Origin: an uncultured bacterium
GTDB lineage: Bacteria; Patescibacteriota; Gracilibacteria; Absconditabacterales; Absconditicoccaceae
Assembly: GCA_946611795.1 (NCBI GenBank)
Contig: CAMOEC010000003.1
Span: forward strand, 1 to 36,226
DNA: 36,226 nt
Direction: 5' to 3'
A program made the position numbers and the translations under genes. This document shows positions 10,569-32,794 of the stretch, one piece after another. The notes below the pieces were generated by a model. The model worked only from the letters and a program-made list of their open reading frames with translations. It made no database searches and was not told the DNA's origin. Each line of letters starts with the position of its first letter. Positions within the stretch are counted from its first letter, which is position 1.

Positions 10569-12632
10569 ATGGATCCAGAATTAACATTAAACTTCGATTC
10601 ACTGCAAGATGAAACCAATGATGGTGGCATCAATAATTCTGAAATACCATCATCTAGACACGAAGAAGAAAGACAGCCAGAAATAAATAAAGAAGAAAAA
10701 GACAAGAAAACAACTGAAATAATATCAAAAAAATGCAACTTAAATGAACAACAAAAATGAAGATTACTAAAAATAATTTCGTCAGAAAACTACAGTGCAA
10801 CAGAAATCGAAAGAAAACTAATAAATAAAAAAACTGAAGATATTGATAAAGTATTATCTGAACTTGAAGAAGAAATAAAAGATCAAATAGAATTAAATAC
10901 ACAAGAAGATAAACGTGAAAAAAATTCAACAAGCAACACAGAATTAACAAATTGATGAGAAAAAAAAGAACCTAATGAAACAAGTATCTATGAAGAAATA
11001 GCAAATAAAGACTCTAAAAATCAAGAAGAACAATTAAAAAAACTAAGAGAAACTAGTCAAAATCTAAAAGAAAGATTCAAAAGCATTTCAGAAAATCTAA
11101 AACCAACTCAAGAAGAAATAAATCAGAAAAAATCACAAATAGATGAAGATCAAAATCTAAAACAAAAACTTGATAAAATCTGACTTGATAGTGACACATA
11201 CCTATCATATGCTATTACAAAAGAAAAAATTCTACAATCAGACAATCGAAATCAAGACGATAATTTAAAAGGATTCATTGAAGATTTAAACAAAATTGAC
11301 GAATATCTTTGAATACCAAGAAGTACCGAAAAATGATATCCACTATCATACAATAAAGATCTTTTAACTCCATGAACAGAAGCAATTAAAAAAGAACCAA
11401 GTATACAAGCTCTAGAAGAAGATACAAAAATTGGAGAATGAATTGAATCTCTAGAAGATTGTTTAATACTTGCAAAACTCTATTGATATAAATGAGAATA
11501 TGATGAAAACAACTTAAAAGAATTAGCAAATAAAACACAACGCACACCAGAAGAAGAGCAACAAATAAGAAACTTTTTATCAAATGACGAAATCAAAAAA
11601 ATAAGGGAACAACACAATGAACGAATAAGCAACTACACAACATGATTTGCTGCTCAAACACCATTATTTTCAATCATCAGATACTTAGACTACCCTAAAA
11701 GAAGCTCAGAGACATTACAAAATAAACTATCAAAAACAAGCTGAACTAAGGATATAAAAGAAGAATTTGCAACAATATGAGAAAATTGAGAGTTAGAGAT
11801 CAAAGGATTTATTGATAATAATCCAATTACACTATATTATGATTTTAACAACGAAAAACACAATTTACGATGTGATGACATTCTAAATATAGACAACAAT
11901 TCAATATCATTAAACAAAAAATGAAAAACTGATTTAAAAATCAACATGCCAACAATTAAAGAAATTGGAGAAAAATTTAAAGAAATTAACTTCTGAGAAA
12001 TATTAAAAAAATCAAAAGATATTGATGATTACAAAGATACACTTTTCGAAGCAATGAATAAAAAAGCAGAAGAATTATTCTCCAATGACGAAGAAATAAA
12101 AAGACGTATAAATAAAAACATCGAAAAGAACCTTACAACACAATCAATTTGTAATACACTCATCCCTGAAAAATTTCAATCTAAGATAAACTCAGACACT
12201 AACGGAGAAACGGGAGAAACACCAATAAGAAAAATATTAAAAAAAATTGATAATACAACAGAACATAGTACAACAAACAAACTAAATAAAATAAAGAACT
12301 GCTTTAATACATTAAATAATTTCTTAAAAGGAAGCAACGTAACAGATCCAAAAAATCAGATAAACAAAATCAGTTCTCCTCTAAAAGAATATATTGTAAA
12401 ATTAAAAATAGCACAAGAAACAGAAAATTATGCTACACGAGAAGAAAATATCTCCAATTTCCTATCTATACTCACAAATGAATCAGACGTTGATAATAAC
12501 AAAGAATCAATTAATGAAGAAACATTAGAAACAGTTATAAAACACCTCTCAAAACCAGAAAAAATACCAGAAGACGAATTAAATTGATTTTCAGAAGATT
12601 TCAAACTACAATTAAAAATAGATGAATTCTAA
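10569..12632 (+). CDS. Unknown large polar protein, 687 aa
   Basis: Not recognised. It is extremely rich in E, K, N, I and D. An acidic, low-complexity N-terminal third (to about 220) includes a stretch resembling a small winged-helix (EQQKGRLLKIISSENYSATE, about 61-80); DNA binding is only a thought. The middle (about 220-470) is more globular with aromatic residues, and the C-terminal part is helical. No signal peptide or membrane helix is seen. The gene sits just after the terminator at 10527-10553. Its TAA stop overlaps the TAG stop of tex on the other strand (shared ctaa), and its likely terminator lies inside tex. TGA-glycine is used throughout. Confidence 0.8.
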
Positions 12633-14893
12633 GAAAACGTAATATTTCATCACAAAGTAAATCATTCAGAAGACTCTCTCCTATCTTTTTTAGGAGATTT
12701 TTCTTTATTTTCTTTTACAACAGTATTCTCTTCTCACTTCATAGATAGTGATAATCTTTCTTTCTCTAAATCAATATCTAAAACCCTAACTGTCACTTGT
12801 TGTCAAACTTTGACAACATCGATTGGATTCTGAACATAAAAATCGGCTAATTGAGACTTATGAACTAATCAATCATTATGTAATCAAACATCTACAAAAG
12901 CACCAAAATCAGTAATATTTCTTACTACTCACTGTAATTTCATTCAAACCTGAACATCTTTAATATCTAACACATCAGACTTAAAACAAGGTTTTTCTAA
13001 CTCTTCTCTTGGATCTAATCAAGGTCTTTGTAATTCCTTAATACAATCCTCCATAGTCTCATATCATAATCCATAATTATTAGAAAAATTCTCGATTTCT
13101 TCTTCAGAATAACTTCTTAATTTCAAAGGTAAAACTAAGTCCTTCTTTTTAATTTTTAATTCATTTTCAATAAAATCATAAACTTGTTTATAATGATCAG
13201 GATGAATTCAAGTAGAATCTAATACTTCTTTTCCTCATTTAATTCTTAAGAAACCAATAGCTTGTTCATAAGCTTTAGGTCATAATCATTTAACTTTTTT
13301 AATTTGCTTTTTATCTGTAAAACTTCAGTTTTCATCCCTATATGCAACGATATTTTTTGCAATAGAAGTAGACAATCAAGCAATATATTGTAACAAGGTA
13401 TAACTAGCAGTATTAACATCAACTCAAACAGAGTTAACAATATCCTCCACTTTTTCATTTAACTTTTCTTTTAAGAATTTCTGATCAACATCATGCTGAT
13501 ACTGTCACACTCAAATAGCTTTAGGATCTATTTTAGTTAATTCAGCCAAAGGATCTTGAACTCTATGCGCAATACTAATAGCTCATCTAATAGTAACATC
13601 CAAATTAGGATATTCTTGTTGCGCTAACTCAGATGCAGAATAAACAGAAGCTCAAGCTTCAGAAGTAATCAAATATTGAACTTTCAATTTATTCTTCTTT
13701 ATAAAATCAGCAACAACTTTTTCTGATTCTCTTGAAGCCGTACCATTTCATAAAACGATTAAATCAATATTATACTTCTTTACCAAATCTAATAAAGTCT
13801 GCTGTGCTTCTTCAACTTTATTTTGAGGCTCAGTAGGATAAATAACAGATTTTTCTAAAAACTTTCAAGTCTTATCAACAACAGCCAATTTACATCAAGT
13901 TCTAAAGGCTGGATCAAATCAAAGAACTGTTAATCATTGAACAGGTGGAGTTAACAATAATTGTTTTAAATTTTCACCAAATACTTTTATTGCAGCCTCA
14001 TCAGACCACCTCTTTTTATCAGCTCTTAATTCTCTTTCTAATGAAGGTAATAACAATCTTTCTAATCAATCATCAATAGCTTCTTGCAAATATTCAGCAG
14101 AACTACCTGCATTTTCAGGCATAAAATATTTCTTAGAAAACTTATCAATCTTCTCTTTAGAAAAAACTATTTTAATAGACAATTGTTTTTCTTTCTCAGC
14201 TCTTGAAACTGCCAAATATGCATAAGAAGGCATATCAGCCAAAACTTTACTATATTCTTTATAGATTTTATATACTCAATTTTCTTCAAAAGTCTTAGTT
14301 GCCTTGGTTTCTAAAACAGCAAATTTTTCCTCATATTCTTTCAAATCAGCTCTTAAATCTGCATGGTCAGAAACATCTTCAGCAATAATATCTTTAGCTC
14401 ATTGAATTGCTTCTTCAACACTTCAAACACTAGTCTTTTTATCTCAAGTATCTTTAACAAACTCCTCAGCTTTTTTCTCAAAATCTTCCTTAGAAAGTTG
14501 AGCCTTTGCAAGAATTTTAGCAAGTGGTTCTAATCATTTAGCTTTAGCAATTGTAGCTTTAGTATTTTTCTTCTCTTTAAAAGGCCTATATAAATCTTCT
14601 ACTCTTGCCAAAGTTTCAGCATTTAAAATCTGATCCTTTAATTCAGGAGTTAATAATCCTTTCTCATCAATTAAACGAATAACATCTTGTTTTCTAGCTT
14701 CAAGATTTTTTGTATACATATAAATTTCATAGAAATCACGTAACTGTTCATCAGTAGCTCATTTCGTCATTTCTTTACGATAACGAGCAATAAAAGGAAC
14801 AGTATTTCATTGATCTAATAACGAAATAATATTAGTAATAACAAGAGTTTCCATTCAAGTTTTCTCTCTAATTTGATTAATTAATGATGACAT
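12629..14893 (-). CDS. tex: Tex-family RNA-binding protein
   Basis: 754 aa, the normal Tex length. Visible in order: the N-terminal Tex helical domain (NTVPFIARYRKEMTKGATDE; VEDLYRPFKEKKNTKATIAK), a YqgF-like RNase H fold (TVLGFDPAFRTGCKLAVVD, about 325), the helix-hairpin-helix segment (KNIVAYRDENGSFTDKKQIK), and a C-terminal S1 domain (GVVRNITDFGAFVDVGLHND). Tex binds nucleic acid and affects transcription and fitness, with an unclear exact mechanism. A basic tail ends with extra TGA-encoded glycines before TAG. It overlaps the convergent 687-aa gene by 4 bases and follows the 76-aa gene by 46 bases. Confidence 0.96.
12677..12706 (+). terminator. Terminator of the 687-aa gene, embedded in tex
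   Basis: A 7-bp stem (tctccta with taggaga) with a T-rich loop is followed by TTTTTCTTTATTTTC on the plus strand, about 45 bases after the stop at 12632. It lies inside the 3' coding end of tex, so it must serve both as terminator and as codons. Confidence 0.65.
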
Positions 14894-14939: not shown

Positions 14940-15170
14940 TTATTGATTAACATCTCAGTATCTTTCCTTGATTAAGTTATTTTCATATTTAGATAAATAA
15001 GGAGATATTTGATCAGGAAGTAATTCTTTTTTCTTAGGAGCAGAACTCATAGCGACACTTAAATCAGTATTTTTAGTCGCCTCCTTTATAGGATTATCTA
15101 AACTCTTGGAAATTTCTTTCTTAGTTTCTTCCTTTTTAATATCCTCTTTTTTTAATTCTTCTTGAGCCAT
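14940..15170 (-). CDS. Small charged protein upstream of tex, 76 aa
   Basis: Begins MAQEELKKEDIKKEETKKEI, a lysine/glutamate-rich, probably disordered or coiled-coil N-terminal half, then a less charged C-terminal part (LLPDQISPYLSKYENN). No family is recognised. Under code 25 it runs five residues past an in-frame TGA to TAA. It is 46 bases upstream of tex on the same strand and has a candidate promoter of its own at 15206-15233, so it probably leads a two-gene transcript. The sequence is low in complexity, so homology searches may be uninformative. Confidence 0.7.
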
Positions 15171-15205: not shown

Positions 15206-15233
15206 ATGTTATTGTAATATAAGAAAATTTCAA
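15206..15233 (-). promoter_or_regulatory. Candidate promoter for the 76-aa gene and tex
   Basis: On the minus strand TTGAAA (15228-15233) and TAACAT (15206-15211) are 16 bases apart. The position makes sense: it begins directly after the terminator of the upstream RNA gene and leaves a leader of roughly 30 bases. Confidence 0.45.
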
Positions 15234-15236
15234 GTT

Positions 15237-15267
15237 AAAAAAAAGACCGGAAGAAATACTTCTGGTC
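15237..15267 (-). terminator. Terminator of the minus-strand RNA gene
   Basis: Read on the minus strand, gaccagaag and cttccggtc form a 9-bp stem (one G-U pair) with a 5-nt loop, then eight Ts. It is one of the clearest terminators in the window and fixes the strand of the RNA. Confidence 0.85.
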
Positions 15268-15587
15268 AGAGTTCTACTTGAACCTGTCCGCAGCCCTTAA
15301 GAATACAGAAGGCTTATTAGTATCAGTAACATAAGATTCTACTGATAGTAAAAAACCTTATACATTTTAACGACTCAAACCGATTCAATATTTAACGCTT
15401 AACAACAAATAACCATTTCCCTATAACAATTAACCAACAATAAATTAAACAAAAATACAGGTTCAAGTATTGTGATAAATTTTCGCAATTGGATAAGCTA
15501 GTCATTTTATCATCCCTTCATGCCCAGAACTCCTGATCCATAACGAGACATTTTTTTGATTTGTTTTTGTATGTAATTTTTATTTAC
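15240..15587 (-). ncRNA. Candidate structured non-coding RNA, about 350 nt, identity unknown
   Basis: No reading frame fits this segment, but it folds. A perfect 13-bp inverted repeat (15275-15287 with 15457-15469, tacttgaacctgt on the plus strand) would close a 195-base domain. An outer 8-bp helix pairs 15526-15533 with 15268-15275. An apical 8-bp hairpin lies at 15321-15347. The RNA ends in a 9-bp hairpin (15245-15267) followed by eight Us, and a good promoter lies at 15594-15621. Size and organisation resemble tmRNA, RNase P RNA or a 6S-like RNA. I looked for the RNase P core (GAGGAAAGUCC, ACAGAA), a tRNA-like CCA end and an Ala-rich tag and did not find them in the right order on this strand. 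Confidence 0.6.
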
Positions 15588-15593
15588 GACTAC

Positions 15594-15621
15594 ACTATAA
15601 CATTGCAAAGAAAAAAAACAA
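15594..15621 (-). promoter_or_regulatory. Candidate promoter of the RNA gene
   Basis: On the minus strand TTGTTT and TATAGT (15594-15599) are separated by 16 bases. Transcription starting near 15587 would give an RNA of about 350 bases ending at the terminator near 15240. Confidence 0.5.
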
Positions 15622-15898
15622 GAAAATAGAAGAAAAATGCTCTAAGTCTAAGTTAGCACATTTTCTAAAAAAAATGATATAAATTGTTTTACAAACGAAG
15701 AATACAGTTATCAACTCAAATCATTTTTTCACAAAAGCAATAAAAAACACTAAAAATACACACAAAACGAATATTGCTATTTAAAATATCGTAGTTAAAT
15801 CATATTGCTATTACATAAAAAATAACTATAGCACAAAAAATCAAAAACCAAAAAATTATATATTATGGTGATAATAATATGAACGACAATAGCAGTAA
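15622..15898. other. Intergenic stretch without a recognisable gene
   Basis: No reading frame above 50 codons was found on either strand in code 25. It holds an imperfect hairpin around 15634-15664 (TGCT/AGCA core, T-rich on the minus side) and an exact 11-base direct repeat, ATATTGCTATT, at 15771-15781 and 15802-15812, 31 bases apart or about three helical turns. The repeat could be a protein-binding site; nothing else supports that. Confidence 0.4.
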
Positions 15899-26755: not shown

Positions 26756-28006
26756 TTATAACTTACTTATATAATCTGATAAACAATTATAAACCCTTTC
26801 ATTTAAAATTTTATTATATTTCCTTCTCGATTCATCTGTAAGATTTTTAGGATCTTCTCAGTATTCTTTGAGGAGAGATTCCCATGGGTATTTTAATATA
26901 CATTCAGACCATCTTTCATGCCAAAAAGAGAACTCCCTAAAAATATTATTATCAATATCAAATTTAAATCTTTCAAACCATTGAGAAAAATAGTCATTTT
27001 TCTCTTTTCAAAGAATTAAATTATACATGTACCTATCCATAACTTTTTTACAACTATTGTCTCCTGATTTACAATCTAATTCTTTTTCAATCTTATCTAA
27101 GACTGTTCAACCTCATCATATTGATCTATAAACTTTATTATCATGGAATAAAAGGTTATCCTCATTATCTGAAATTCTATCAAGATAGACATGAAAAAAA
27201 CTATCACTATATGATATCGTATCACATGGATTATTTAATGATTTATATGTTAAATAATAACTCCATCCATCTCAATTTCATCAGTAATGATACCCTATAT
27301 ATCAATCTTTATATGGGAGAATATATTGTTCTTTTGTAACTAAGAGTTCATCATGTCATCATCAAAGCATTTCATAAGGACATTTAGATACCACATCTCC
27401 TAAATTCTCAAAATTAGGTATATTAGGATTTAATTGAGACTGTGAATTTCATCATCAATTTTGGCTTCTCATCATCATTAACATAACGTATCATCTTATC
27501 TCTTTCCTAGTTTCTGCATTATTTATGTTTTTTATAATTCAATCTAAGTTTAATTGATTAAGATGTTTTGTATAATATGGATTTCATCAGTTATATTTTT
27601 CTCAATACAAAGCTCTTGATAATATTGTTCAAAATTCAGCTCTTGTGACTTTATCGTAAGGTCTAAATTCTGAAATTCATTGTCCCATCAATCATAACTG
27701 ACAGGCTTTTGTTACTCAATTATCATATTGTTTATCTAATTCTGCTGTTATATCAAAAAACTGACACTTTTTAGAATTATCTAGTTTCTTTTCTAAAACA
27801 TTTATTACATAATTACTTATCATTTTAGATAACTCAATCCTTGTTATTTCTCAATTCATATTTGCTTTATCTATTGTTGATTGTGTTGTAATTAAATTAT
27901 TAAATGCCCATGTATAGGCAGATATTTGTTCCTTTGAATAATCTGCTTTAACTAAAGGAATTAATATTATTGTTAATAAGAATGTTAATAGTCAGATTTT
28001 TTTCAT
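26756..28006 (-). CDS. Exported SLH-domain-like protein, 416 aa
   Basis: A signal peptide (MKKIGLLTFLLTIILIPLVK-A, about 1-21) precedes S-layer-homology-like sequence: YTWAFNNLITTQSTIDKANM, GEITRIELSKMISNYVIN, and the strongly patterned FRPYDKVTRAEFGTILSRAL. SLH domains hold proteins to cell-wall polymers in other bacteria. A glycine/asparagine-rich stretch (about 215-230) leads to a C-terminal domain of about 170 residues with paired cysteines and tryptophans that I do not recognise. The opening codons, atg aaa aaa atc tga, are the same as in the four lipoproteins nearby. Such SLH-like proteins are common in this lineage as I recall. Confidence 0.83.
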
Positions 28007-28046
28007 TTCTTTAAATTAATAAATAAACCATAAATATTGATATTTT

Positions 28047-28877
28047 TTAATCTGTTTTATCTCATATAGATACTAAATTAGTATCTTCTGAAAAGGAAAT
28101 ATCACAACTATAATCTTGTCAGTATAATACCATTCTATTTTTTATTCATCATAATTTATTTATCTCCGAACAATGAGTAGTTTCATCTCTATCTTTAACA
28201 TAAACATAATATCAATCATTAAAATCTTCACCAACTTTAAATTTGATATTATATAGTTTATATAAATCATCTATTTCTCATACTTCTATTATACAATTTT
28301 TATATGTTTCATCGCTATTTATATCAAAATATTGACCATATGTATTTCACCATAATATATCCTTTTTTAAATGATTATCATATTGATATTTAAATATTCA
28401 ATAATCATACATATCTTTACTAAGTTCTCATGTTCATGGATGCAATTTAAATACTTCTTCTTCGTCCCAATTTTGGATATCTTTTATTCATATATTTCTA
28501 CAATCTATTCTGAAATCTTCTACTATTTGTCTTCAAAGATCACTAATCATTAATCAGAATTTATCAATATACATTGCTGAATTTCTGTTATCAAATCTTA
28601 AATCTTCATTGCTTATTAATTCATTATTTTTGAATGAAAAATTAGTGAATATTTTTTCATTATCTCAAAATGCAAATTGATATATATAATTTCAACTTCA
28701 TTCAAATACTGATAATGACCGTGGATTTATATTTTCATAAAGATATCATGATTCAGATCGAATTAATTTATTTTCAGTAGTATCATTAATAATTTCAGGA
28801 TTTTCTACTGTTCAATTACATCCTGTAAGTAGTAATCAAGCTACTAATAAAGTAGTTAAAAGTCAGATTTTTTTCAT
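28047..28877 (-). CDS. Surface lipoprotein, 276 aa (cassette copy 1)
   Basis: Signal peptide MKKIGLLTTLLVAGLLLTGC with lipobox LTGC, so the mature protein should be lipid-anchored at Cys20. The mature part is Asn/Asp/Tyr/Ile-rich, predicted beta-rich, with a few cysteines and no motif I recognise. Its first 20 codons carry the signal cassette shared with three other genes. It lies 40 bases upstream of the SLH-like gene on the same strand. The long frame needs TGA-glycine more than 20 times. Confidence 0.83.
28818..28877 (-). repeat. Signal-peptide/lipobox cassette, copy 1
   Basis: 60 bases from the ATG. The first 35 coding bases are identical to the other copies; the part coding the second half of the hydrophobic core has about six differences. 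Confidence 0.85.
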
Positions 28878-28943
28878 TATATCACAATATTCATAAAATT
28901 ACTTTCTATATTTTAATACGATGAGAACCAATTAATATGACAT

Positions 28944-29378
28944 TTATCACATAACATAAAATGAAATTACAGGCACACATACTCATAAGAGTAGTATTAA
29001 AATGACACTAATAATATATCGTTTTGAAATAGCATTTTTTTGTTTCCTAAGTTTATTTATTATCCAAATTTCAATTAATTGCAATAAAGCTCAAAACGCA
29101 AAAACAACATAAGAACAAGGGAGCATTTCCAAAATAAAAAACATTGGAAATCTTTTACCAATTACCCAAGTCGGAATAATAAGAATCAGCATCATTATTA
29201 AAGGATAATAGAGCTTATATTTTTTAATTGAAGAAAATCATAAAAGGAAAGCAACGAGTAATCACCAAACAAACGACATTGGAATCATTCAATGTCATTC
29301 GTTAAAAAAAAGGATTAATACAATAAATATAAGGAATAAAAATAATTCAAATCAGTATTTTTTAACAAAGGCCAACAT
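28944..29378 (-). CDS. Integral membrane protein, 144 aa
   Basis: Four hydrophobic helices: about 9-23 (FELFLFLIFIVLILFF), 30-47, 55-75 (LIMMLILIIPTWVIG) and a C-terminal one at about 123-142 (YIISVILILLLGVCVPVISF), with another apolar stretch near 80-100. Loops are short and basic. Not recognised. It sits between two lipoprotein genes with gaps of 66 and 28 bases and so probably belongs to the same transcript. Confidence 0.72.
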
Positions 29379-29406
29379 AATAAAATTAGATTTCTTTGAA
29401 TAAATA

Positions 29407-30540
29407 TTATCTATCATATCAGACAGATCTAATAGAATTTAACCGAGGATATTCATCAAACTTTATTTTATTCTTTCATATAAATAATTCGTCCAATTTC
29501 CCTAAATTTTCAAGTGAAGAAATATCCGATATATTATTTTCTCACAAATAAAGAAACTTCAACTCTTTCATTCAAGAAATAGCGGAAACATCTTGGATAT
29601 TATTCGTATTCAATGCTAAATTAAACATTTGAGTTAAGTTTTTTAATGGTGAAATATCTGATATCTGATTAATCGACAATCACAACATTTTTAAGTTTAC
29701 CAAATTCTCAATTGGTTTAATATCATTTATCTCATTTTTATCCAAAGATAATTCTTTTATATTAACTAAATTTTTTAAAGGAGAAATATCTTTTATTTTG
29801 TTATCTCAAAGATATAATGTTTCCAAAAATGGTTTATTATTTAACGGAGAAATATCTGATATTTCATTAGAATATAAGTTTACATATTTCAAATTATTCA
29901 GATTCTCCAACACCGATATATCTGATATTTTTGGGGGATTAATATCATTATGAATTACCAATTCTTCTAAATTTATCAATTTCTCTAATGGGCTTATATC
30001 ACTTATAAAATTATTACTTAAATTTAAACTTTTTAAGTTTATTAAATTTTTAATAGGAGAAACGTCACTAACATAATTTGATTCAATATCTAATATTTCC
30101 AAATTTACTAATCAGGATATAGGAGAAAGATCATTAAAATTATTTAATTTTAGATATAATGCTTTTAAATTCTTCAATTTAGAAATTTCTGATAAACTAT
30201 TCAATAATCATCCTATACAAAGTTCCTCAACATCCATATATTTACTAAATGCTCATGATTCTATTTCATTAACCCATGAACAACGCATTTTTTTTCAATC
30301 AATTACACATTTATCTTCAATATTACATTCCTTAAGTATTCAATCATATATTTCAGAATCACATGAAACTTTATTATTAATATTCGAATCTTCAAAATCT
30401 ATAGATCCTGTTAAAAATTCCTCATTTGAAGATATTAAATTAGTATTAATCATAATTTCATCGTTTTGCCTATTTTCAAAACAACCTGTAAGTAATAAAC
30501 CACCAACTAATAAAGTAGTTAAAAGTCAGATTTTTTTCAT
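29407..30540 (-). CDS. Internalin-like leucine-rich-repeat lipoprotein, 377 aa
   Basis: Signal peptide with lipobox LTGC at Cys20, then a cysteine-containing cap (about 55-110) and roughly ten 22-residue repeats of the form L-x-x-L-x-x-L-x-L-x-x-N-x-I-x-D-I-S-P-L, for example LKSLNLSNNFISDISPLEKL. This is the bacterial internalin-type LRR, a curved protein-binding scaffold known from adhesion and host-contact proteins. A surface lipoprotein with this fold fits attachment to another cell; the target is unknown. The last repeats end about 20 residues before the stop. The gene carries a nearly identical copy of the signal cassette. Confidence 0.92.
30481..30540 (-). repeat. Signal-peptide/lipobox cassette, copy 2
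   Basis: 60 bases coding residues 1-20 of the LRR lipoprotein. It differs at one base from copy 3. The code is unusual for such length, because TGA at codon 5 is glycine in all copies. Confidence 0.9.
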
Positions 30541-30577
30541 TTTTATCGAATTTTATGTATAAAAATAATTACATATT

Positions 30578-31144
30578 TTACCATCATCATAGAAATGATA
30601 GATATAAGCAATAAATTCACGAAATAAATATTAATACTCATAATATTATCAAAAGTATTTTTACCAACTTTTTCTTTCCCTTTGTATTATCAAATACGAA
30701 ATAACTTCAGAGTAATATTAGGATTGAAAGTAGAATTCACCGAAAACTAATATTGGCTGCTGGAGGTAATTTATAAATAAAATCTGGATTAATGTACGAA
30801 CATCTTTGAACAAAATGTAAGTATCTTCATAACATAACCTGTTGTATTAGATCTATTAGCTTTATTACAAAAAGTAGTATAAAAGAAATACTTAATAACC
30901 TTCTTATTAAGATTTTATTCTTTATTATATCAATAATAAATAATAGTGTTGAGACTATTATTCGTATAAAAGGGAGTACAAACAAAAGCAACTCAATTAA
31001 ACAATTTTTCATATTGGGGCATGCATCTGTACCCCATCCTTCGTTTCTACTATATAAAAAAATCCATCAAATAGGGAATAATAAAGATAATAAAGCTAAT
31101 CGAAATATTCGTTTATAATAGGTATTGAGTATTTTCTTATTCAT
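30578..31144 (-). CDS. Integral membrane protein, 188 aa
   Basis: Four hydrophobic helices are visible: about 17-32 (LALLSLLFPIGWIFLY), 49-71 (CLIELLLFVLPFIRIIVSTL), 83-103 (LLSISFILLFVIKLIDLI) and 136-150, with a fifth near the C-terminus (LVKILLIILGVLIFISGIYC). The loop after helix 1 contains ACPNM. Not recognised. It is 11 bases upstream of nothing but its own spacing: 37 bases before the LRR gene and 11 bases after the next lipoprotein gene, consistent with co-transcription. Confidence 0.73.
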
Positions 31145-31155
31145 ATGTTAATTCA

Positions 31156-31953
31156 TTATAAAACTTCTATTTTTCAGAATATAGAACAAGGTCATGGAGC
31201 ACATCAATCTCATATACTAACTTTATAGAATTTTTCTCAATCTTTAGACTCTATAAAAATTATAGGTCAAACTCAATTTTCTCAATCTTCTCAAACACAA
31301 TCGTTATAAATATTACCATCATTACTAACAAACTCATAATAATATTCTCATGCTCATTTAAAAAGAGTTCCTAAACTCTGATTAATATCGTATTTGCGAA
31401 GATTGCATCATGAAGATGAATAAGTTTTATCGAGTAATTCTTCTAATGACATAAGAGAATCTTTTTTATATCATTTAATATACTCAACAGAATTCAAGTC
31501 CTTATTATCTCTTACATATTCTAAAGAATATATTGCATTTCATGATAATAAAAATAATGGTTTTTCACGCTTTTCAGCAAAGATAGTATTCCAATTTCCA
31601 TTTTCTCAATCTGGGGTCGTTATTTTTACTCAAAGTGATGGATTAGTATATTCATAATACCATCATTCTACATATTCAGTATCTTTTCAATTATCACATC
31701 ATCAGATACATGGCATTTGTCATTTCCACTTTTTTGGCTCAAAAAAAGTCCCCTCTTCACTTCAAGAAAGTTCTTCTCATATATTAACAAAACTTCTATC
31801 TAATTCTGGTACATCAATATCAGCAGAACACCCTTCATCTCATTCTTCAATAACACAATCATCAATAATTTCGATATTTTCTAAAGATTTATTACAACCT
31901 GTAAGTAATAAACCACCAACTAATAAAATAGTTAAAAGTCAGATTTTTTTCAT
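31156..31953 (-). CDS. Surface lipoprotein, 265 aa (cassette copy 3)
   Basis: Signal peptide MKKIGLLTILLVGGLLLTGC with lipobox, Cys20 as anchor. The mature protein is acidic with many Gly, Trp, Tyr and eight or more cysteines, including MPCIGGCDNG and GDGCAPGPCSIF, which suggests disulfide-stabilised outer domains. No family recognised. The first 60 bases differ from those of the LRR lipoprotein gene by one base, while the rest is unrelated. It begins 10 bases after the next upstream gene's stop (31964). Confidence 0.83.
31894..31953 (-). repeat. Signal-peptide/lipobox cassette, copy 3
   Basis: 59 of 60 bases match copy 2 (one change converts Thr to Ile). Similarity stops just after the lipobox cysteine codon. 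Confidence 0.9.
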
Positions 31954-31963
31954 TACTTCATGT

Positions 31964-32794
31964 TTACTCAATAAAATCTCGTTCTCTGATCATTGAGCCA
32001 AAATATGATCGTTCCTCAGCTCATCAATCATCTAACACAACTCTGAATGTATGAATTTTTCAATCATTAGCAATATCACGAAGATTTACACATTCGTGAT
32101 GATTTGTACACTTATTATAAGAATTGAAACACTCTATATCATCAAATCTTAAGTTTGGGTACATTGCTACAATGTGATTTCAGTCTGTATATCATAGAGT
32201 AAATCATCAATACTGATTCCCATCATCAGGATATATTCTCCAAGTTTCAACTGTTCAGAATTCTTTTGCTTCTTCATCATTACAATCAATGCACTCAGAT
32301 ATTGAATGAGTTTCTAAATATCATGTTAGCAACATATTTCACTCTAAATGGTCAAGACTTACAGAATTTGTATCTATATCATTCCAAACATTTTGATACA
32401 TTTTCCAATCAAAATATAGAGGCTCTTTTGTTGGTTGTTCCTGAATAACTATTTTTTCATTTGATTTCCATTGTCATTTTTCATCAAGCTCTGATTTGTA
32501 ATACACTGAATTTAGGAAATAAATATCTTTTCAACAATGATTATCATTATCTCATAATATATTAGGATCATTATAAAGTTTCTGAACCGTCATCCATGAA
32601 TAATCTGGTTTTTGTATTTTTATTTCAGTTCAAAATGGATACAAAGCTAAATATTTTCAAGTATACGATTCAATTATTTCTGTATTATCTTTCTCCCAAT
32701 CCTCAGGTAAACAATCATCTTTACATGATTTATTACATCAAGTAAGAAGCAAACCACCAACTAATAAAGTAGTTAAAAGTCAGATTTTTTTCAT
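31964..32794 (-). CDS. Surface lipoprotein, 276 aa (cassette copy 4)
   Basis: Signal peptide ending LLLTGC, mature start at Cys20. The mature part has several short cysteine pairs (CKDDC, ECIDC, CFNSYNKC with a following CxxHHEC), many Trp/Tyr residues and an acidic charge. The HHEC/CxxC clusters could bind metal or form disulfides. No family recognised. It is 10 bases upstream of copy 3 and 32 bases downstream of the 168-aa exported protein gene. Confidence 0.83.
32735..32794 (-). repeat. Signal-peptide/lipobox cassette, copy 4
   Basis: The first 40 coding bases are identical to copy 2; six differences lie in the lipobox region. A shorter 16-base match (gtcagatttttttcat) also starts the SLH-like gene at 27991-28006. 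Confidence 0.88.

Follow-up and report, generated by a model that had tools for sequence, protein, structure and literature searches.

In an uncultured member of the Absconditicoccaceae, does the DNA which separates a small ORF from a glutathione peroxidase region encode an RNA of its own, and if so, of which kind? The window, i.e., the entire stretch of 36,226 nucleotides which was analysed, originates from a genome in which UGA is read as glycine. Its ORFs are open under code 25, as in Gracilibacteria/Absconditabacteria. The putative transcript extends over approximately 15237-15590; it has full-length relatives in two further genomes and a consensus structure of 79 base pairs. The ncRNA gene, its flanking signals and the two genes downstream are all on the minus strand. 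The downstream genes are a small ORF of 76 aa (14940-15170), which is outside of the RNA, and tex (12629-14893) with Tex_N, YqgF-like, HHH and S1 domains. The small ORF is rich in lysine and glutamate and conserved in three species; it has no Pfam match. The gene order RNA, small ORF, tex is identical in all three species. The third species (G002) has another upstream gene, nevertheless the conserved RNA block is intact. At a distance, at 26756-32794 of the window, several lipoprotein-like ORFs are lined up in a row. They start with a near-identical signal sequence (MKKIGLLT-LLV-GLLLTGC), which suggests, as far as can be judged from the sequence, that a cassette was duplicated locally and that its bodies were exchanged.

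The original prediction had described a structured RNA without an assignable family, and had proposed a comparison with Rfam and a search for covariation among related genomes. Rfam 15 contains no model which matches the ncRNA, either at gathering thresholds or at E up to 10, which supports the lack of an assignable family. ARAGORN returned 0 matches in the region; a tRNA-like domain is absent. The tmRNA model (RF00023) did not match at E ≤ 10, and the genome has its own tmRNA on another contig (G000:C52:4790-5169; 69 bits). tmRNA is comparable to the ncRNA in its size of about 350 nt and in a long-range helix which joins 5' and 3' parts; it differs by the tRNA-like domain which the ncRNA lacks. 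Bacterial class A RNase P RNA (RF00010) shares size and long-range pairing with the ncRNA, yet its model does not match and the RNase P RNA of this genome is located elsewhere (G000:C36:14936-15266; 109 bits). As a side observation, the RNase P RNAs at L101 (G000:C36) and at L103 (G002:C1) are closely followed by a tRNA-like sequence, GGGGGAGTGGTGTAGTGGTAACACATCGGTCTTCGGAACCG. 6S RNA forms one rod, about 180 nt in size, which has a bubble at its centre. Its model (RF00013) did not match the ncRNA, the consensus fold of which is branched and has a long-range helix. No 6S RNA was detected in the source genome, and some relatives have only weak matches.

With respect to the signal recognition particle the situation concerns the class as a whole. 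Neither the small nor the large SRP RNA (RF00169, RF01854) was found in 49 class genomes; the small-form controls were mostly positive. In the source genome and its neighbours no SRP RNA was found even at E ≤ 10, and the ncRNA region had no match to either model. The M domain of Ffh (PF02978) is absent in 40 of 40 class genomes, with positive controls in 14 of 14. Neither part of the particle was detectable across the class genomes searched (G000-G067), most of which do have tmRNA and RNase P RNA. Therefore an SRP RNA is not expected. The absence fits a published remark on the loss of SRP subunits in CPR bacteria, many of which lack the two subunits that Vampirococcus is also missing (PMC8080830).

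How widespread is the ncRNA? Using blastn against 99 relatives, full-length matches were obtained in G001 (89% identity) and G002 (72%) only. These are metagenome-assembled genomes, genus-level neighbours of the source and the two other members of the genus which were compared. Among 49 family genomes they were again the sole relatives, and at E ≤ 1e-5 each genome has just one match. Two covariance models were then used over 353 class genomes, R1 for the 3' domain and R2 for the helix-3 domain; candidates were prescreened before scoring, so that strongly diverged homologues could be missed. R1 matched the three genus members only. R2 matched the same three and five further genomes weakly (E 0.006-0.03 per genome). 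These five lack the 3' domain (R1 below 11 bits) and the best one is inside of an ORF; they are therefore probably due to chance. The tex loci of 18 genomes from other genera contain no relative of the ncRNA. Exact motif scans of genome contigs had true matches in G001 and G002 only, 12 others not being convincing by R1. The same scan of viral contigs yielded 23 matches, none of them convincing by R1. In phage and plasmid collections nothing was found except for one match of 15% at E 0.09. Thus, as far as the searches reach, the ncRNA is found convincingly in one genus only.

The comparison of the three species supports a defined RNA fold. RNAalifold predicted from the three sequences a structure in which 10 pairs are changed on both sides. 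In the named structure of 79 pairs, 97.4% of the cells are paired across the three sequences, compared to 36-44% when the partners are slid by 1-3 columns; the three sequences, two of them close, served both to derive the structure and to test it, which favours it over the slid controls. Covariation among related genomes is present in this set of three: 11 pairs are doubly changed vs. 3.9 in shuffles, and 0 of 500 shuffles reach 11. The covariation score is 0.266 vs. 0.166 in shuffled alignments (0/500). Of the doubly changed pairs, three each fall in the 5' hairpin and in helix 6, two each in the rod and in the terminator, and one in the long-range helix; most pairs of the structure are invariant among the three sequences. 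Further, the RNA of each species folds more stably than its shuffles do (z -2.5, -3.3, -2.6). No reading frame of at least 20 aa is common to the three species; indels, stops or lost starts break them. Since reading frames are not conserved, the RNA is most likely non-coding. All of this is in line with the structured RNA gene as originally described.

In the covarying fold, a 5' domain of two hairpins and a 3' domain which consists of a rod of about 33 bp are connected by a long-range helix of 13 bp. The first hairpin (helices 1-2; 15513-15548) displays the compensatory changes UA to CG, GC to AU and CG to UA. The loop of the second (helix 3, GAUAAA/UUUAUC; 15473-15512) comprises about 26 nt, with the sequence AUGAYUAGCUUAYCCAAUU-GCGAAAA; it is almost invariant and is the most conserved exposed segment of the ncRNA. 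The long-range helix is formed by UACUUGAACCUGU (5' arm, 15457-15469) and ACAGGUUCAAGUA (3' arm, 15275-15287). They are a perfect inverted repeat, exactly as had been claimed, and the helix is kept across species: nine pairs are invariant and one U-A pair is replaced by C-G on both sides in G002. A perfect 13-bp stem at a separation of at least 30 occurred in 2 of 1000 dinucleotide shuffles. Enclosed by this helix is a variable region (15376-15456; 48-52% identity G000-G002), in which a weak helix 6 varies while pairing is mostly kept. The rod hairpin (helices 7 and 8, with 1x1 mismatches; 15292-15375) has the compensatory changes AU to GC and CG to UA and an invariant segment, UAAUAAGCCUUCUGUAUUC. 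Covariation does not prove helices 3 and 7, since there is hardly any variation in them. The outer 8-bp helix fared less well than the 13-bp helix. It is present in the sequence as predicted, GGAGUUCU pairing with AGAACUCU by seven Watson-Crick pairs and one G-U, yet it shows no covariation, is broken at three of eight positions in G002, and is in competition with the 5' hairpin, for which the support is better.

The ends of the presumed transcript are marked by conserved signals, both identified by reading. The putative promoter, TTGTTT-16-TATAGT, is sigma-70-like and is at 15594-15621. The spacing of 16 is kept in the three species and the counterpart in G002 is TTGTAT-16-TATGAT. The predicted promoter is present and conserved, but its -35 element is weak (3 of 6 consensus positions), for which reason it is missing from the output of the consensus scanner. 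In this AT-rich DNA promoter-like matches are at chance level (12 found vs. 11.4 expected); because such matches abound, the case for the promoter rests on its conservation and not on a consensus score. The terminator (15237-15267) consists of the hairpin GACCAGAAG-UAUUU-CUUCCGGUC at 15267-15245 and a U8 tract at 15244-15237. It, too, was not listed by the consensus scanner. Two pairs are doubly changed in G002, and conservation between species backs both promoter and terminator; the predicted U8 terminator is thus borne out.

Homology does not begin at the presumed RNA start. In the blastn comparisons with G001 and with G002 it begins at 15694, about 100 bp ahead of it, and the conserved block extends from there through the RNA as far as the promoter-like element ahead of the small ORF. 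Its upstream part of about 90 bp (15595-15684) includes the promoter together with A/T tracts and a motif which resembles GTGCTAACTGAG. The identity of this part between species is 72-96% per 25-nt window, and the flank beyond is unalignable. The conservation of this part equals that of the RNA itself. Judging from the sequence, it is possibly an activator site or UP-element region, or it may indicate an earlier transcript start. A 12-bp hairpin in this block (AAAAUG...CAUUUU) was rejected as an RNA helix: it can form in the source genome, whereas by reading the pairing is lost in G001 and G002.

Is the RNA a gene in its own right, or is it part of the transcript of its neighbours? It could be a long 5' leader of the small ORF and tex, attenuator- or riboswitch-like, in which alternative folds decide on termination at U8. 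Like such leaders the ncRNA is a structured RNA with an intrinsic terminator upstream of a gene, the distance to the next start codon being about 67 nt. The constant order of RNA, small ORF and tex in three species, combined with an upstream gene which is not conserved, also fits a leader. Against it stands a second promoter-like element between terminator and ORF, TTGAAA-16-TAACAT (15206-15233), found by scanning, with hexamers and spacing identical in G001 and G002. It resembles TTGAAA-16-TATATT upstream of the tmRNA in the same genome. Independence is favoured for two reasons, namely the conservation of this element behind the terminator in all three species and its likeness to the sequence before the tmRNA. 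Further, there is no match to a riboswitch or leader family within the RNA at E up to 10, and the 18 tex loci from other genera are devoid of the RNA. Complementarity between the conserved loop and the start regions of the small ORF and tex does not exceed that of shuffles, a comparison which bears on control by base-pairing only. We therefore rank an independent, trans-acting RNA first and the leader second, as an unlikely explanation.

Less probable still is a trans-acting antisense sRNA in which the helix-3 loop pairs with mRNAs. The loop as the most conserved exposed stretch and an sRNA-like gene which ends in a terminator would agree with it, yet an RNA of 350 nt which folds into a closed structure of several domains is large for an sRNA, and the two start regions which were examined, those of the small ORF and tex, were both negative. 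One may also ask whether the locus is an RNA gene at all and not a conserved DNA regulatory region or a decaying sequence, given that chance promoters are abundant in AT-rich DNA. The compensatory changes in five helices, above the shuffled and the slid controls, make this quite improbable. The least probable explanation is that a housekeeping RNA, be it tmRNA, RNase P, SRP or 6S, is present here as a diverged copy; a divergent housekeeping RNA had been considered in the original prediction. The size is compatible with tmRNA or RNase P RNA, and 6S is undetected in the genome. Yet tmRNA (C52) and RNase P RNA (C36) are already present, SRP parts are undetectable in the class, the branched fold is unlike 6S, and no match appeared at E up to 10.

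The preferred reading, then, is an independently transcribed, genus-restricted structured ncRNA, putatively acting in trans, to which we assign a probability of about 0.62. We infer that it is made as a transcript of about 350 nt and works in trans. Fold and conservation together suggest how it may do so. The long-range helix would hold the 5' and 3' domains together and thereby would present the nearly invariant helix-3 loop of about 26 nt. It is to this loop that a protein or a partner RNA is predicted to bind most probably, and the rod is predicted to be a second protein-binding surface.

OLE, GOLLD, ROOL and raiA are large orphan structured bacterial ncRNAs. The ncRNA described here is likewise long, branched, apparently independently transcribed, non-coding and lineage-restricted. 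It differs from them by having no match in Rfam 15 and by a much narrower distribution, i.e., one genus. The RNA family is new insofar as it is not represented by any catalogued model, while its kind, the lineage-restricted large structured ncRNA, is already known. In the literature which was covered, largely without subscription papers, an RNA of this sort is not described for the group. A more far-reaching proposal, which we put forward only tentatively, is a new class of large structured RNA which forms a ribonucleoprotein, has a lineage-specific function in Patescibacteria with UGA as glycine, and may have homologues in other genera which have diverged too far for the searches used here.

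Ultra-small, genome-reduced and recoded bacteria are expected to keep little useless sequence. For this reason an RNA of about 350 nt with a maintained fold in a genome of 1.3 Mb is probably functional. The known housekeeping RNAs fail to explain it. A concrete and testable RNA family is at hand for a group of bacteria with very little RNA biology.
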